A stretch of 44,689 bases of DNA from Pseudobdellovibrionaceae bacterium (GTDB lineage Bacteria; Bdellovibrionota; Bdellovibrionia; Bdellovibrionales; UBA1609): assembly GCA_018663505.1 (NCBI GenBank), contig JABJQG010000070.1:1-44689 (forward strand), written 5' to 3'. Both the position numbers and the translations under genes were made by a program. Below the pieces are notes generated by a model. It did not search any database. It was not told where the DNA came from and worked only from the letters and a program-made list of their open reading frames with translations. Below are positions 3 through 44,573 of this stretch, piece by piece; positions within the stretch are counted from its first letter, which is position 1, and the number at the start of each line of letters is the position of its first letter.

Positions 3-110
3 AAGAGAAAGGGCTATGGATATCGAAATATGCATTATTTCAAGCTTAAAATACTCCAAACTTGTGGGTATTTAAACTCAAGGTACATCACAGATCCATA
101 TATGCTGTAG
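3..110 (+). pseudogene. C-terminal end of an ISL3-family transposase, cut by the window edge
   Basis: The third forward frame is open from the window edge and ends in TAG at 108-110. It encodes about 35 residues including GYGYRNMHYFKLKILQ and GYLNSRYITDP, which match the C-terminus of the complete transposase at 43308-44573 almost residue for residue (KRKGYGYR here, KRSGYGYR there). At DNA level a run of about 46 bases is identical, with scattered differences elsewhere. After the stop codon the two copies diverge quickly, so they are related but not identical elements. Whether the gene is complete outside the window cannot be seen. Confidence 0.85.
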
Positions 111-205
111 CTTTGAGATGAAACTAAAATGAAATAGAAACGTAACTATGTAAAAATTGTTCTAAATCTAAGTAGATTGGTACGCGTTTTGCTAATTAGA
201 ACCAT

Positions 206-10051: not shown

Positions 10052-11452
10052 ATGAAACTTCTATTCAGTGCATTTTTACTAGCTGGATTATTCTTTACAT
10101 TTGAACAACTAGAGGCAGAGCCCTGGTTATCCAATCGACTGGCCCAAAATTGTGCTGGATGCCACGCTCCTGGGCGCTTAAACCTACCCCCAAAAGGGCG
10201 TCGTTGTACACTTTCTTGTCAGGGTTGTCATGTCAATCCAAATGGCGGTGGGCTTAGAAACCAATACGGAGTTTGGTCTCAGCAAAGATGGATGAGATCT
10301 TTTGCCTCAGATACCTTTGGCAGTAAAATGCAACCCAAACCTCACTACAAGCAGCCCTATATGGATCGCAAAGGTGCGGACAAAAAAATTCTTCCCCCAA
10401 TGAAATTTAAAACTGCCACATCACTAGATTATGTTGAGAGAGAGTATACTAACAAGGTCTACAAGGATTGGCATAAAGAAGCCAAAAATAAAAAAGAATT
10501 TTTAAGCCGCATTGCCAAAGGAGACCCGTATGCCTCTGAAAGAACAAAATCAGTATATGCTGGTGGTGATTTTAGATATATCTACGGACAGTACTCAGGA
10601 GACACTAACGGTAATGATGAATTAAATTTTCCTATGTCATTTGACATGGGCATGAGGTATCGCCCAGTAAGGGAGAAGTACTCTCTAGTCTTTGAGTCCA
10701 GATTTTTAAATATTCCGGGCAACTCTGATCTTGATCAAACCTTCACTACTTCCTCTAGAATTCGTTCGGCGTATTTTATTGCCGATGACTTAATGTACAA
10801 CTCTTGGGTTATGGCAGGATTATACCGCCCAATGTTTGGTAACTACACAGCAGATCACACAACGCTGTCACAAAAAATTTCTGATTTAGATCAAAATACA
10901 GTATTTAAATCTGTTGGGTTTGGTACTGCACCCAACGTTCCATTTTTTAATATTCATTTTATTCAACCACTAAAAAACACCACATATTCGCAAGACAGTG
11001 GTTACATTATTAATGCTGGTGGACGATTTGTCAGCTATAGTGCAAATATCAAACTTTCCTATATGAGCACCAAAAGAACCGCTGAAGAACTTATCAATGA
11101 TTTAACATCTCTTACTCTTGGTGGAATGTGGAAAGATCGTTTAATTTCAGTTTTTGAACTTTTAAATTTTAAAATTGAAGAAAGCCGTGGAGTGATAGAC
11201 GCTGGGAGCGTAGTCACTTTAGAAAATAAGTATCGCTTTTGGAGAGAAAATTACGTCACATTAGATTTACAATCAGCCAACACCCTAAGCAGCCGAAAAG
11301 AAGGCACAGCGACTCAATACTCCCTTGGCATTAAAAGTTATTTACTATCGGGAACAAAAGTAGAGTTAGCCTATGTTTTGCGTAAAGAAGAAAGCCCGGC
11401 TGCCACAGTAGAGATCAACGGCATCCAAATGCAAGGACATATTTACTTCTAA
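10052..11452 (+). CDS. Outer-membrane barrel with N-terminal diheme cytochrome c region
   Basis: The 466-residue protein has a signal peptide (cleavage near LEA/EP, residue 22), then two c-type heme motifs, CAGCH (34-38) and CQGCH (56-60), within 30 residues. The second is followed by VNPNGGGLRNQYG. Residues from about 165 to the end form alternating strand blocks and finish IQMQGHIYF, a C-terminal Phe as in outer-membrane barrels. It could carry electrons across or at the outer membrane, in the manner of porin-cytochrome systems but fused in one chain; that function is inferred. AAGGA precedes the start. The stop codon TAA is the first triplet of the inverted repeat at 11450-11574. Confidence 0.8.
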   Translation: MKLLFSAFLLAGLFFTFEQLEAEPWLSNRLAQNCAGCHAPGRLNLPPKGRRCTLSCQGCHVNPNGGGLRNQYGVWSQQRWMRSFASDTFGSKMQPKPHYKQPYMDRKGADKKILPPMKFKTATSLDYVEREYTNKVYKDWHKEAKNKKEFLSRIAKGDPYASERTKSVYAGGDFRYIYGQYSGDTNGNDELNFPMSFDMGMRYRPVREKYSLVFESRFLNIPGNSDLDQTFTTSSRIRSAYFIADDLMYNSWVMAGLYRPMFGNYTADHTTLSQKISDLDQNTVFKSVGFGTAPNVPFFNIHFIQPLKNTTYSQDSGYIINAGGRFVSYSANIKLSYMSTKRTAEELINDLTSLTLGGMWKDRLISVFELLNFKIEESRGVIDAGSVVTLENKYRFWRENYVTLDLQSANTLSSRKEGTATQYSLGIKSYLLSGTKVELAYVLRKEESPAATVEINGIQMQGHIYF

Positions 11453-11574
11453 ACAGGTGCCAGGCATCTTTTGCGGATGCAGCACACCATAATTCTACAG
11501 TATTGTTTTCATTTTAATTCATTAACCTGAATTATGGTGTGCTGCATCCGCAAAAGATGCCTGGCACCTGTTTA
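11450..11574. repeat. Perfect 46-bp inverted repeat spanning stop codon to stop codon
   Basis: Arms 11450-11495 and 11529-11574 are exact reverse complements around a 33-base AT-rich loop. Each arm starts TAAACAGGTGCCAGGCATC, so both convergent genes read directly into the element and take their TAA from it. It may act as a bidirectional terminator, though no T-run follows. The size and symmetry resemble a miniature mobile element. Confidence 0.9.
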
Positions 11575-12996
11575 GGGTAATGTTCTTACTGGGAATGATT
11601 CACTGTAAAAGGGTTCTGCTGCATCGTTAAACGCAATAGCTCGAAAATTATAAAGAGTATCTGGAGTCAGGTCAGTTATATTCAAAGCGTGATATGTGGT
11701 GAAGTTCACATCTAATGCCGTTGTCATCACTTCACCTGTTAATACATCGGTATACTCAAGTTGCGTTGGACTAGCTATATCTGTGTTCCACTCCACTATG
11801 ATACTTGTTCTATTTGGTTCAATAAATTGAAAATTTGATATGACTACTGGGTTAGATAAAGGCTGACAGTAAGAAATATATATTTCAGATCTCTCCCCGC
11901 CAACAAGTGCCGCCTCAATATGAATTTCATTTGGGACTGATTGATAACTAAATGCTACTGGCTGCCTATCTACTAAAACCTTTAATGTACTTTGATCAAA
12001 ATCAGCATGAGAAAGTGGAAACTCTGTAAGTAAGTTTAGTTTTTTCACCGCAAGGAAACCTATTTGCTGCATAGAAGAGTCGTAGTTTCCGTCTGCAAGA
12101 TCCACAAGGATCCCATTGGATTGCTGAACTGTTTCTAAATAACCATAACCAATTTCATTTTCTCCAGTGGCTGGCAAAGTTTCATTATCAGTATATATAA
12201 TTCCAGATAACAATAGTGGAGCTTCTTGCTTTAAATCTTGTAACTGCGATATCACAGACTCGGGGTTTATTCCGGCGCAGTCTCTATCATGGGCTGGCCA
12301 TTCCTTATGGTTTGGATCAAAAACAGGATCTACTCCTTCTGGGTATTGACTTAAAGAACAAATATCATTCTCATCAGCTACAAATACAACGGCTAGTCCC
12401 GCATCAGCTCTAAAAAAATCTAAAGCACTATTTTCAACTAAGTGAGTGGTCACTCCTTCAATAAGAGAAAATAACCCAACTTCACCACCATCCGAATGGC
12501 TATCTGTTTTAATAGATGTCATATTCTCTCTTAATAAAGTTTGCATATCAGTTGTAGTTAGCTCTGATGATTTAAGGACTTTAGGGTTTCCTGATTTAGC
12601 ATACAGTTTGCCACTATAAGAGCTCTTGGAGCTATGTGCCAGCATCACACTCACATGAACATCAACATCAGCAGGCAGCTCATCGATAAAAGCATCTATG
12701 CCCTCAGCTATTCCTGCACGCTCTGCAGATAAAGATCCTGAAGTATCCACAACAAAAAGAAGATCTATTTTTTTTGAAATTTCAGCATCAGGTTGGATGA
12801 AAGTATCAGAGTAACATAACTGAGTATCAAGCACGTCATCAGGAGGGTCTTGCGGTAATACCTCTGGATTAAAAGCTTCACCAATATCCGCCTTACTTTC
12901 TTCATCTATAACACAGGCCGAAGTTAACAATAAAAAGCCTAAAAGCAAAAATACTCTTATAAACATATTTGTAGAATTATCTAGCTTGTTATTCAT
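11572..12996 (-). CDS. Surface lipoprotein with von Willebrand factor A and fibronectin III domains
   Basis: From the ATG at 12996 the product has 474 residues; an upstream in-frame GTG at 13008 would add four. GGGGGA just before the ATG favours 12996. The signal peptide ends LLLTSAC (Cys28). A vWA domain follows, with the MIDAS metal motif DTSGS in LLFVVDTSGSLS and later AVVFVADENDICS. The C-terminal 90 residues look like a fibronectin III domain (SIIVEWNTDIASPTQLEY..., LTPDTLYNFRAIAFND). Such proteins usually mediate adhesion or surface binding. It is convergent with the diheme barrel gene. Its TAA stop is the end of the palindromic element. Confidence 0.88.
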   Translation of the reverse strand: MNNKLDNSTNMFIRVFLLLGFLLLTSACVIDEESKADIGEAFNPEVLPQDPPDDVLDTQLCYSDTFIQPDAEISKKIDLLFVVDTSGSLSAERAGIAEGIDAFIDELPADVDVHVSVMLAHSSKSSYSGKLYAKSGNPKVLKSSELTTTDMQTLLRENMTSIKTDSHSDGGEVGLFSLIEGVTTHLVENSALDFFRADAGLAVVFVADENDICSLSQYPEGVDPVFDPNHKEWPAHDRDCAGINPESVISQLQDLKQEAPLLLSGIIYTDNETLPATGENEIGYGYLETVQQSNGILVDLADGNYDSSMQQIGFLAVKKLNLLTEFPLSHADFDQSTLKVLVDRQPVAFSYQSVPNEIHIEAALVGGERSEIYISYCQPLSNPVVISNFQFIEPNRTSIIVEWNTDIASPTQLEYTDVLTGEVMTTALDVNFTTYHALNITDLTPDTLYNFRAIAFNDAAEPFYSESFPVRTLP

Positions 12997-16293: not shown

Positions 16294-16436
16294 AATTTTC
16301 TTAAATGCTTCTTTTATGAATTGGAACATTTAACACCAAAAGGCTCAGACATGCGGTTCTCGCCCTTCGGCCTGCGATCCGAACTCGTTTTTGGCGCTAA
16401 ATGTTCAAATTCATAAAAGAAGCATTTAAGAAAATT
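16294..16436 (-). repeat. Palindromic element, copy 1: 75-bp conserved core in unique inverted arms
   Basis: The conserved core is 16328-16402, read on the minus strand. It is 71/75 identical to the core at 34084-34158 and itself has complementary ends (GCGCCAAAA ... TTTTGGTGT). It is enclosed by 34-bp arms, 16294-16327 and 16403-16436, which are reverse complements with one mismatch but share no sequence with the arms of copy 2. It lies between the barrel gene at 16527 (upstream in the direction of transcription) and the aminotransferase start. The rest of this 298-bp gap holds nothing else I can name. Confidence 0.9.
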
Positions 16437-27291: not shown

Positions 27292-28302
27292 ATGATTAGA
27301 AAAAATTTAAGAATCGGTTTAGTAGGCGCCACAGGCATGGTGGGTGAAACTTTTATTCAGCTTTTAAACGAAGAAAAAGTCAGCGTGCAAGAGCTTCGTC
27401 CTTTTGCTAGTGAAAAAAGCTTAGGGCAAAGCATTACATACGAAAACAAACAGTGGCCCATTCAGATTCTAAAGCCAGATTGCTTTAAAGGCTTAGACTT
27501 GGTCTTTTTTTCTTCAGGTGACCCTATTAGTAAAGAGTGGGCCCCTGAAGCAGAAAAGTCTGGTGCTTATGCTATTGATAACTCTGCAGCCTTTCGTATG
27601 AGTGACAATCACTTATTAGTGACTCCCGAAGTTAATGGCCATTTACTTGCTGAAAACCCTCAGCCACAAGTTATTGCCAACCCAAATTGCTCTACTATTC
27701 AATTGGTAGTAGCCCTTAATCCTTTAAAAAAATTTGGACTTAAAAAAGTACATGTGGCCACCTATCAAGCTGTGAGTGGCGGAGGAAAAGAGGCACAAAA
27801 TGAACTTACAAGTCAGATGAAAAATCTTAGTGAAAATAAAAAAATACAAGCCCCTCAGGACTTCCCCCACCAGATTCTCTTTAACTGTATTCCAGAAATT
27901 GGAGGCTTTGATGAGCAGGGATTCTGCAGTGAAGAGATGAAAATCATTAATGAAACAAAAAAAATTCTGCAACTGCCTAAATTACAAATATCCGCTTTCA
28001 CAGTTAGAGTTCCTGTTTTAAACGGACATAGCGAAGCTGTTTGGGCTGAGTTTGAAAAAGATGTAACCCGCGAGGACGTTCTAGCAGCTTTTCGAGAGCA
28101 AGAAGGTCTTAAGGTTATCGACAACCCTAAAAACCACGCTTATCCCCACGTTGTAGAAGCTTCTGGAAAAAACCCCGTTTACGTAGGCCGAGTCCACAAA
28201 GATTTAAACCTTCCAAATACATGGATTTTCTGGGTTGTGGCCGATAACATCCGTAAAGGCGCAGCCCTCAACGGCCTACAAATAGCCGCTAAACTCTTTT
28301 AG
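27292..28302 (+). CDS. asd: Aspartate-semialdehyde dehydrogenase
   Basis: The 336-residue enzyme reduces aspartyl phosphate to the semialdehyde for lysine/diaminopimelate, threonine and methionine synthesis. Motifs: GLVGATGMVGETF (NADP site, 9-21), ANPNCSTIQL (nucleophile Cys), AVSGGGKEA and NGHSEAVWAEF (substrate Arg/His region). Length is normal for the family. It begins seven bases after pssA with no clear Shine-Dalgarno, so it is probably translated by coupling. Its TAG stop (28300-28302) includes the first two bases of the RAYT cassette's left inverted repeat. Confidence 0.95.
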   Translation: MIRKNLRIGLVGATGMVGETFIQLLNEEKVSVQELRPFASEKSLGQSITYENKQWPIQILKPDCFKGLDLVFFSSGDPISKEWAPEAEKSGAYAIDNSAAFRMSDNHLLVTPEVNGHLLAENPQPQVIANPNCSTIQLVVALNPLKKFGLKKVHVATYQAVSGGGKEAQNELTSQMKNLSENKKIQAPQDFPHQILFNCIPEIGGFDEQGFCSEEMKIINETKKILQLPKLQISAFTVRVPVLNGHSEAVWAEFEKDVTREDVLAAFREQEGLKVIDNPKNHAYPHVVEASGKNPVYVGRVHKDLNLPNTWIFWVVADNIRKGAALNGLQIAAKLF

Positions 28303-28412
28303 GTACGGACACACCTTGGTGTCTACAGGGTGTCAAATCGATAGCTCAAGAAGTCTTGAGTTTTTTTGTGGGAGACATGGATATTTGAGGTTAAGTACTT
28401 CAAACAAACAGT

Positions 28413-28489
28413 GAGCCTTCCTGGCTCTAATTGTTTAAAACTCGGGCTCGTGCCCTCGCTCTTTCAGAGCGCTGCGCGTTTTAAACAAT
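28413..28489. repeat. REP-like cluster of hairpins beside the RAYT gene
   Basis: Three GC stems occur in a row: GAGCC/GGCTC (28413-28427), GGGC/GCCC (28444-28455) and CGCTCT/AGAGCG (28457-28471). The last two are enclosed by a perfect 12-bp AT-rich inverted repeat, ATTGTTTAAAAC (28430-28441) and GTTTTAAACAAT (28478-28489). The layout fits REP/BIME sequences recognised by RAYT enzymes. Confidence 0.7.
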
Positions 28490-28580
28490 CTAATAAAATT
28501 AAAGAGTTATATTTTTATTAATTTCGGCCAAATGCATATGCACCTGAACTGGTTCAAGCTTTGCAGTTTAAACCACTACT

Positions 28581-29222
28581 ATGCCTAGAAAAAAACTAAT
28601 TTATACACATTTACTACCGTACCATATCACTGCAAGAGCCAATAATAAAAAATGGTTTTACCTTCCCAAAGAGGAGGTATGGAGTATATATGTTCATAAT
28701 ATTAATGAGATAACTAAAGAGTATGGCTTTCGTTGTCACGAATTTCTACTTATGAATAATCATTACCATATGATCGGATCCACCACTACTGCTGATTTGG
28801 GTGAAGTGTTTTGTGTGTTTCAAAAGTCTATAAGTCGGATGATCAATTCAAAAGCCGGACAAATCAATCATGTTTTTGGAGGACCATACAAGCCATCACT
28901 TATACACAGCTCAACCTATTACTATCATGTTTACAAATATTTGTACCGCAACCCCATAGAAGCAAATATGGTAAATCAAGCCAATGATTATATTTATTCC
29001 ACCTTTGATTCCAACCACAGTCTAATTGTTCAACCAAATACTTCTAAACCAACAAATGGCATTGATTGCCATATCCCAACTCATATTAATCAAAAACTCT
29101 CCTGGATAAACGAAGCTTACTCTTCAGAAGGAAATTTGCTTATCCAGAAAGGACTTCGTAAAACAGAATTTAAAATTATATATAAAAATCAATGGTCAAA
29201 AATAGATTTAAACTTTAAGTAA
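28581..29222 (+). CDS. REP-associated tyrosine transposase (RAYT), Y1/HUH type
   Basis: The 213-residue protein begins MPRKKLIYTHLLPYHITARANN, the usual RAYT opening. It has the HUH metal motif His61-Tyr62-His63 in LLMNNHYHMIG and the Y..VYKYLYRNPIEANMV block (113-131) that carries the catalytic tyrosine. RAYTs nick single-stranded REP sequences and are linked to REP spread. All key residues are present, so it may be active. It lies inside a cassette with inverted ends and REP-like hairpins 90 bases upstream. Confidence 0.9.
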   Translation: MPRKKLIYTHLLPYHITARANNKKWFYLPKEEVWSIYVHNINEITKEYGFRCHEFLLMNNHYHMIGSTTTADLGEVFCVFQKSISRMINSKAGQINHVFGGPYKPSLIHSSTYYYHVYKYLYRNPIEANMVNQANDYIYSTFDSNHSLIVQPNTSKPTNGIDCHIPTHINQKLSWINEAYSSEGNLLIQKGLRKTEFKIIYKNQWSKIDLNFK

Positions 29223-29528
29223 AATACGTTATGTCGTTTAATCAACTCTCATATTAGATTTATTTTCTATGGATGAAGGATTTACTCAGATATCTATTAA
29301 AAGCCCCCCCTATATATTACACTTGATAGTTGAGAACGAAATGAAGTCTTGGTTAGCTTATTTAGATACTATGAGTTTCTCTCATGATAGAATCTGACAC
29401 GTAATCTTAGTTTGCTTTAAAAAGAGCCTGCTATTTGTGGCAAATGTGACATGGTGTAGACACCAAAGTGTGTCCGCACCTTTAGAAGGTTTTTGACATG
29501 ACCGCCGTTGCGTGATTTCATATTATCT

Positions 29529-33955: not shown

Positions 33956-33979
33956 TATCCAAATCCTATTTGGAAAACA

Positions 33980-34008
33980 AAAAGCCAGAGTTTATCTCTG
34001 GCTTTTTT
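33980..34008 (+). terminator. Rho-independent terminator of rplM-rpsI
   Basis: AAAAGCCAGAG (33980-33990) pairs with CTCTGGCTTTT (33996-34006) around TTTAT, followed by more T. It is 25 bases after the rpsI stop. Confidence 0.9.
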
Positions 34009-34044
34009 TATTTGCGGAGGGTCCAAAAGATAATTTGGGAAAAG

Positions 34045-34197
34045 TTTCTCAAGTTATTGATCAACTCACTTTTAAATTGCAATATTTTGCGCCAAAAGCG
34101 AGTTCGGATCACAGCCCGAAGGGCGAGAACCGCATGTCTGAGCCTTTTGGTGTTAAATATTGCAATTTAAAAGTGAGTTGATCAATAACTTGAGAAA
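34045..34197 (+). repeat. Palindromic element, copy 2: 75-bp conserved core in unique inverted arms
   Basis: The core (34084-34158) is the plus-strand counterpart of the core at 16328-16402, with four differences. It contains a GCCC-GAA-GGGC hairpin and complementary ends GCGCCAAAA/TTTTGGTGT. It is enclosed by perfect 39-bp inverted arms, 34045-34083 and 34159-34197, whose AT-rich sequence is unrelated to the arms of copy 1. It follows the rpsI terminator in the same orientation as rpsI. The following 219 bases to 34416 contain only an orphan AGGAGGT at 34369. Confidence 0.9.
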
Positions 34198-43122: not shown

Positions 43123-43307
43123 CAAATTTCTTTTCCATAAATATACTTCTTACATTATTACACACCCATCTACATAGGTATAATAGCAGTTAAACACTGG
43201 CTATTATAAAAAATGAACGCATGTTGTATTGTCTACATAAACCGTCAGAAATTGACCATAATATCTACGATATTCAGTCTCTTCTGCATTTAAGTTTATA
43301 CTGAAAG

Positions 43308-44573
43308 CTATAGCATTTGAGGATCTGTAATATACTTTGAGTTTAGATAACCGCACATTTGGAGTATTTTAAGCTTGAAATAATGCATATTTCGATATCC
43401 ATACCCACTTCTTTTTAAAGTTTTAATAACATGGTTCATTCCTTCAGCTAAACCTGAGCTAACTCTGTAGATAAAGTAGTTTTTTAAAGTTTCCCACCTC
43501 GAAGTCATATAGTTGTGCCATTTATGGAGTATTGTAAACCCTGATTGCCAAATCCAACCACCAATTTCATCAAATATTTCACGCGCATCCGTAACAGATC
43601 TTGCATTAAAAAAATCATGCATACGTTCTTTAACTAATTCCAGTTTAAAAAAATCTTCATTTTCAGTCATTAAATCAGAAATATGCCGCTGTTCTGTCTG
43701 GTCTCTTCTTGATGCTTTTTTTAAAAATAAAAATCTATATTTTCCTCGGCTTAACATTTGTGTGTTTGAACCATTTTCAGTTTCACCATGAAGTGTTTTT
43801 CGAGTTTCGTTCACAGCATTATCAAATGATTGCATCACATGAAACCTGTCCCAAACAAGTGTAGCATTTGAACAATGCTCTTTCACTGAAGCCCCGTAAG
43901 CATCATGCATGTCGGCAGCTACAACTAATATTTTTTCACAAGCATTTTTACCAATAATTAAAAAAAATTCATCTAAGGCCTCTTTACGCCTTGAAGATGA
44001 TGTCCAGATCACGCGTCGAGTATCTAAATCACAAATTACAGTTATAAATAAATCATCACGTGTTTCCCCTTTTTTTAATTTTCTCCGAGCATAAACTTCG
44101 TCCACACAAATTCTACTTATTTTAGGAATTCTATAACTTGATAACATTGCTTTCATTCTTTTATAATCAAGTCGCCATGTTGTTGAGCTATCTTCTTTTA
44201 ATATTCTTGCTACTTTCGCTACGGGTGAAATCTCACACATGCGCCCAACCCACCATGCATAATCTAATGTTTTATGTGGGGTTTGTTTGGATAAAAAATT
44301 TAATTTCTCTGTGCGAACTTTTTTACAAAATTTGCAAAAACCCTTTTGTCTTCGAAATATTATATAACAGTGATTTGTAAAAATCGGCATGTGCTGAACT
44401 TTAACTTTATATGAACCATGGCCAGGCTCCATCAGGTTATTGCAGGTAGAACAGTTCATTTTACTGCTTTGATTTCGTACTAAATGTATTTCAATTAAAT
44501 GTTTTGATAGATATTCTTTAAAATCTATAACTTTATGCTTTTCAAATTTAAAAACTCTAGGTAGATTTAACAT
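43308..44573 (-). CDS. ISL3-family transposase, full length
   Basis: The 421-residue protein has N-terminal zinc-binding cysteine pairs (CSTC and CKFCKK), a helix-turn-helix region (SPVAKVARILKEDSSTTWR) and a DDE core: Asp in ISRICVDEVYAR, Asp in VVAADMHDAYGA and Glu in SSGLAEGMNHVIKTLKRSGYGYR. This matches ISL3-family transposases in length and order. Nothing is disrupted. A matching second copy's C-terminus lies at the opposite window edge, facing inwards. Terminal inverted repeats could not be defined from the flanks (43180-43307 and 44574-44689). Confidence 0.93.
   Translation of the reverse strand: MLNLPRVFKFEKHKVIDFKEYLSKHLIEIHLVRNQSSKMNCSTCNNLMEPGHGSYKVKVQHMPIFTNHCYIIFRRQKGFCKFCKKVRTEKLNFLSKQTPHKTLDYAWWVGRMCEISPVAKVARILKEDSSTTWRLDYKRMKAMLSSYRIPKISRICVDEVYARRKLKKGETRDDLFITVICDLDTRRVIWTSSSRRKEALDEFFLIIGKNACEKILVVAADMHDAYGASVKEHCSNATLVWDRFHVMQSFDNAVNETRKTLHGETENGSNTQMLSRGKYRFLFLKKASRRDQTEQRHISDLMTENEDFFKLELVKERMHDFFNARSVTDAREIFDEIGGWIWQSGFTILHKWHNYMTSRWETLKNYFIYRVSSGLAEGMNHVIKTLKRSGYGYRNMHYFKLKILQMCGYLNSKYITDPQML

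Follow-up and report, generated by a model that had tools for sequence, protein, structure and literature searches.

The 143-bp hairpin at positions 16294-16436 of the window, i.e. the whole stretch of 44,689 nucleotides that was analysed, belongs to a dispersed family of hairpins at gene 3' ends that is almost confined to one bacterial order and carries two conserved boxes on a long stem. The arms of these elements probably co-evolve by DNA copying, for which template switching is the best explanation.

The hairpin consists of 39-bp arms with one mismatch (G/A) around an asymmetric core of 64 nt (Table 1), and its stem reaches 48 nt at 94% in a repeat search once the core-edge pairs are included. 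As single-stranded DNA it folds with -43.4 kcal/mol as compared to -13.96 kcal/mol (sd 2.83) for shuffled sequences; with a z of -10.4 and none of 200 shuffles equally stable, it is not a chance structure. A related inverted repeat is located at 34045-34197, and the repeat search aligns the two cores on opposite strands over 103 nt at 87%. That both repeats are real, that one element is present twice with different arms each time, and that the arms carry one mismatch here and are exact in the other copy had been proposed in a sequence-only reading and is borne out by the sequence and the repeat search. The arm length of 34 bp given there for the first copy is slightly short; the outer arms measure 39 bp here and 43 bp in the other copy. 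Equally real is the reported asymmetry of the core ends, AACACC versus GCGCC, which recurs in most type-A copies of the host genome, and the core is, as was also claimed, polar and not simply palindromic. Here, the core is called '+' where it reads TCARACA..GAACTC, a reading that falls on the + strand for the core at 16334 and on the - strand for that at 34089; the sequence-only reading had taken the opposite strand as the core.

Table 1. Coordinates of the two hairpin copies in the window.
Feature	Position	Strand	Remarks
Left arm, first copy	16294..16332	+	39 bp
Conserved asymmetric core, first copy	16334..16397	+	64 nt; box 1 - apical hairpin - box 2, A/T clamp; TCARACA..GAACTC orientation
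Box 1, first copy	16343..16356	+	GCTCAGACATGCGG
Box 2, first copy	16376..16387	+	GATCCGAACTCG
Right arm, first copy	16398..16436	+	39 bp; pairs with the left arm apart from one mismatch
Second copy	34045..34197	-	downstream of rpsI and its separate terminator
Arms, second copy	34045-34087 and 34155-34197		43 bp, no mismatch
Core, second copy	34089-34152	-	
Box 1, second copy	34130..34143	-	
Box 2, second copy	34099..34110	-	

Other structures in the window deserve mention. Upstream of the second copy, a terminator-like hairpin with a T-run follows rpsI at 33975-34010, so that the second copy is probably not the rpsI terminator. At 11449-11575, between two convergent genes, 47-bp arms form a perfect inverted repeat around a spacer of 33 nt; both boxes are missing, and the structure resembles a further long hairpin that has symmetrised itself but is of another kind. 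Two 165-nt stretches near the two ends of the window (3-167 and 43251-43415) are 78% complementary, and a low-complexity repeat at 1599-1859 overlaps a minus-strand ORF.

In the 3.78-Mb host genome (72 contigs), a DNA search gave 40 matches, and the core pattern with up to two mismatches was found in 48 places as compared to none for the reversed control pattern. Forty-four elements were examined, the remaining four places being three outer halves of nested copies and L084, a chance match of the pattern without a hairpin that was discarded as a family copy. The cores fall into three types and are nearly alike inside each type. The arms, 29-62 bp long, are different in every copy yet 98.7% self-complementary (25 mismatches in 1985 pairs). 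Among 68 copy pairs that share an identical 45-nt core, the arms are 43% identical, with 30% expected if they were unrelated, and of the 347 differences in the right arm of the 25 closest copy pairs 313 have a mirrored counterpart in the left arm, most of the unmirrored ones tracing to L016, which has a register shift. In the arms of the 22 type-A copies a weak consensus remains, which declines with distance from the core and, on both sides alike, is down to background at about 40 bp. Four copies (L023, L024, L027 and L028) are each enclosed by the loop of a second element, the own outer arms of which measure 48-98 bp, and nested copies occur in both orientations.

As judged from aligned sequences, the arms change together, indels included, at one orthologous site downstream of ahcY in the genus g37. 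The gene, the product assignment of which is supported by solved relatives, was recovered from 23 of 24 genomes; the full element follows the ahcY stop codon in 12 species, most of one arm has been lost in two genomes (G052 and G047), eight genomes have a different ahcY 3' region without the element and one (G072) is ambiguous. For G085 the element was taken from a second contig (L238), as the assembly breaks inside the hairpin, the left arm being the same in both contigs. The orientation is the same in all 12 elements, and the arms of 30-41 bp show six mismatches in 409 pairs, with 5% to 44% of the aligned columns differing between species besides indels. In seven species pairs, which are not independent of each other, the left-arm events that recur identically in the right arm amount to 4/4, 3/6, 7/7, 6/6, 5/6, 3/8 and 8/8, the two low comparisons (3/6 and 3/8) both involving G077, which has two T.T mismatches. 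In G086 versus G085, for example, each of the four events, namely two substitutions and two indels of 2 nt, has its mirror image in the right arm (4/4). Changes in one arm are thus mirrored in related genomes, only partly so in two of the seven comparisons, and comprise multi-base and indel changes, not just single pairs; such mirroring is hard to get via single compensatory changes. As the arms have evolved after insertion, at a fixed place and with mirrored indels, the generation of new arms at transposition is excluded as the general cause.

For a functional RNA stem, maintained by ordinary compensatory substitutions selected for base pairing, which we consider unlikely, speak the sites just after stop codons and the strong covariation: in 40 sequences from five genomes 94.5% of the cells of the named structure pair, as compared to only 33-50% in slid controls, and there are 536 double changes versus 148 in shuffles. 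However, the 957 cells of the outer arms comprise 902 Watson-Crick, 8 G.T, 8 A.C and 39 other combinations, so that G.T is no commoner than its mirror image A.C and a wobble excess is absent; in tRNA stems of the same loci, a small control, G.U accounts for 7 of 84 pairs. As selection on an RNA stem should pass G.U and DNA copying should not favour it, the arms point to DNA copying. The sequence-only reading had suggested covariation as a check, and double changes are indeed massive, but with almost no wobble pairs they argue for arm-to-arm DNA copying and not for RNA-stem selection. Likewise against an RNA stem are the 30-90 bp arms, perfect to the last pair, and the indels mirrored at the orthologous locus, and the terminator-like hairpin with T-run present in most ahcY cores would be predicted to end the sense transcript before the second arm. 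On the other hand, the core stems do wobble on the minus strand, with 68 A.C on the + strand (equivalent to G.U on the - strand) versus 8 G.T, an excess that includes two conserved core-edge positions, and for 99 of 149 unique cores the minus strand gives the better RNA fold, which hints that it is the structured one. Because of those two positions the strand asymmetry was demoted from a proof of minus-strand RNA to a hint. Covariation by itself is thus no proof of functional RNA, as the arms described here would pass such a test.

Of the mechanisms considered for the arms, template switching is the likeliest. During replication the nascent strand would fold back on the hairpin, with its own first arm serving as the template for the second (quasipalindrome template switching), whereby a mutation in one arm would be mirrored or erased; arms could lengthen by copying flanking DNA, and the core could be flipped. 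Template switching is an established process at imperfect inverted repeats: having folded back, the nascent strand acts as template, and the repeat becomes more perfect (PMC7202029). The footprints of such events are present here as mirrored clusters, mirrored indels, arm growth into the flank and flipped cores, and replication may well produce them; hairpin mismatch repair or arm-arm recombination would be expected to leave similar marks. Arm growth is exemplified by copy L210 of G037, the start of which lies within a tRNA-Arg gene. One of its arms has the final 8 nt of this gene and one further base as its outermost part, and the other arm contains their mirror image; given that function fixes the end of the tRNA, it is the flank that was copied across to the other arm. 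Against the copying model stand conserved core-edge and box-loop mismatches that have not been symmetrised, so that selection must protect them or copying must skip them.

Alternatives that place the origin of the arms in mobility have to be considered as well. An inverted target duplication at transposition, by which new arms are made from the target at each insertion, would account for arms that differ per copy, for flank-derived outermost bases as at tRNA-Arg and for a consensus that reaches background at about 40 bp, but is very unlikely. L022 lies in frame inside an 849-aa ORF, HypF, which at this point is longer than solved HypF proteins by about 56 residues; the corresponding ~168 nt nearly equal the length of the complete 163-bp element, so that both arms arrived with the core. 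Moreover, a weak homology among type-A arms extends to about 40 bp, and the ahcY arms changed once the insertion was already in place. Given the hypF and ahcY evidence, target-derived arms were dropped except for a few outermost bases. Inspection of the hypF copy by eye showed no target-site duplication. A palindromic transposon remnant, a MITE or REP moved by a Y1 (RAYT) or other transposase with the arms as its inverted repeats, is quite unlikely: the dispersal in 40-50 copies, patchy among species, and the insertion in hypF fit, but the conservation is the reverse of that of a transposon, with the centre kept and the terminal repeats not, and 10 of the 20 carrier genomes of the family, including G015 (34 copies, 99% completeness), have no match to a Y1 transposase. 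As the carriers do not track it, the Y1 transposase was rejected as mobiliser. Scarcely credible is an integron-type attC site, a hairpin recombination site just after an ORF, with which the element shares the hairpin, the position downstream of ORFs, the orientation bias and one strand that folds better; the conserved boxes are central and not terminal, copies are scattered singly and not arrayed, and none of the 47 family genomes has an integron integrase over the curated cut-off, weak matches to this protein family being found also in 14 of 14 control genomes.

Two genes related to such systems were observed. The integron-integrase-like recombinase L202 (G000:C27:139498-140339; 113.9 bits, below cut-off, profile positions 5-181) is apparently broken near its C-terminal part. 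In the window, a RAYT-like gene at 28301-29481 comprises a 213-aa ORF (28581-29222) with a weak Y1 transposase match (22.5 bits, below cut-off), flanked by 84% inverted repeats (28301-28338 and 29444-29481). By whatever route, in family f1 the unit seems to have spread whole to new sites.

With respect to distribution, a covariance model has matches in 20 of the 47 family genomes, at 1 to 54 copies per genome, and in 45 of the 140 from the order. When the limit is tightened, 42 of the 368 genomes in the phylum match, and 40 of these 42 belong to the order. As the model can fire on any long palindrome the boxes were checked, and both are present in 28 of 30 loci, the other two (G123) having diverged boxes. 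The unit consists of two boxes, TCARACATGC and GAACTCG, flanking a variable apical hairpin, with an A/T clamp outside the boxes, and is carried as a whole on the long stem. In 172 elements from 38 genomes, positions not fixed by the search pattern are conserved as well: box 1 is preceded by AAA (88-98%) and TCA by C (90%), and AACTC is followed by G (88%) and then by a T-run (80-94%). Conservation of the boxes extends from family to family within the order, and the stem is free in sequence yet always palindromic. While the apical hairpin resembles a canonical intrinsic terminator in some genomes, e.g. G085 and G086, 163 of the 172 cores are without both T5 and A5; a T-run is thus missing from most cores, and the general role is not that of a terminator.

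Further nested arrangements exist in relatives. In G029 (L143, L145, L155 and other loci) the unit is located inside a further, larger palindromic outer stem with its own conserved asymmetric loop (CAGATGAAAGAATACTTACA / CTAACTTTATGTAAAC), possibly a second motif of the same logic; relative to this loop the inner module has one orientation in 20 cases and the other in six, the program counting 20 and four with 10 uncertain, two of which clearly have the second orientation by eye. In L226 (G117) and L237 (G110) a boxed module is nested in the loop of another in opposite orientation. Shared insertions were seen neither among G029, G059 and G060 nor between G061 and G062 in the loci sampled (26/54, 12/37, 5/12, 5/5 and 13/21 matches), which makes this a weak negative. 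Rfam gave no match over the gathering score in the window, and for nine loci, apart from tRNA, only sub-threshold matches, mostly to microRNA precursors. No family member was found in the viral contigs, plasmids and phages searched, and two exact-pattern matches in a wider contig collection were dismissed as chance, being gene-like sequence without a palindrome.

As the boxes resist symmetrisation they are probably selected, and one may speculate that selection keeps them as a recognition site, in single-stranded DNA or RNA, with a role at gene 3' ends. More specifically, and as a tentative reading that we hold possible rather than probable, the boxes would be an undescribed single-strand motif (single-stranded DNA or minus-strand RNA) at gene 3' ends, the arms of which are re-copied by replication, mobile and self-nesting in one family.

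The family sites are mostly located just after stop codons. With gene context called from ORFs of 100 aa or more, 23 of the 44 host copies lie between genes running with the core and seven between genes running against it (p 0.005), the remainder being seven convergent, five divergent, one inside an ORF and one at a contig or locus end; a looser ORF cut-off gives 23, 6, 7, 7 and 1. The arm starts at a median of 22 bp past the stop codon of the upstream gene in sense. Ratios of with to against are 9:4 in G029, 14:10 in the rest of the family and 5:2 in the rest of the order, where 17 of 36 elements are convergent. The orientation relative to the upstream gene is thus biased, not fixed: the sequence-only reading, which had expected a constant polarity from the two copies in the window, was right as to the bias and not as to its constancy, and its rule is the reverse of the general one, as both window copies (L001 and L009) are in the minority orientation.

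The origin and survival of long perfect stems has been an open question. Template switching is the answer that has been proposed, but few direct data follow a single site through evolutionary time. At ahcY a dozen species carry the hairpin in one and the same position with mirrored arms, indels among the mirrored changes, and the locus lends itself to estimating how fast and in which direction arms are copied; other genomes offer dozens of paralogous copies. If the copying model is true, the element would be a self-repairing hairpin that evolves as a shape, its carrier stem needing no sequence conservation, and the boxes present an unexplained conserved motif that can be tested. The mechanism proposed for the arms is already known; the family, the box motif and the ahcY series are not described in the open-access literature searched.

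Among known systems, bacterial small interspersed repeats such as REP/BIME, BOX, RUP and bcr1 are families defined by their stem sequence. As here, they measure about 150 bp, are dispersed between genes in many copies, often at 3' ends, and form hairpins, but in the present family the stem is free and the centre conserved. REP elements possess a conserved palindromic stem with a GTAG-type foot and integron attC sites have terminal R boxes, whereas the elements described here conserve neither the stem nor the ends; conserved terminal inverted repeats, as in MITEs, are likewise not seen, since the terminal arms differ per copy. Intrinsic terminators are equally 3'-end hairpins, and the apical hairpin at ahcY looks canonical; the stem here is, however, several times longer and carries conserved boxes, a T-run is absent from most cores and a separate terminator precedes the second window copy. 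The nematomorph mitochondrial coding palindromes are likewise long perfect inverted repeats with arms that evolve concertedly at a fixed place but, unlike the present family, are mitochondrial, lie in protein genes and have no shared core (PMC6649704). Closest is quasipalindrome correction by template switching, which has mirrored changes, perfect arms, growth by copying and spacer inversion in common with the elements and is described for short repeats, reporters, rRNA genes and yeast genes (PMC7202029, PMC8604942, PMC8794818); compared with these cases, the hairpins described here form a family with a conserved core and arms of 30-90 bp, one locus of which can be traced across 12 species.
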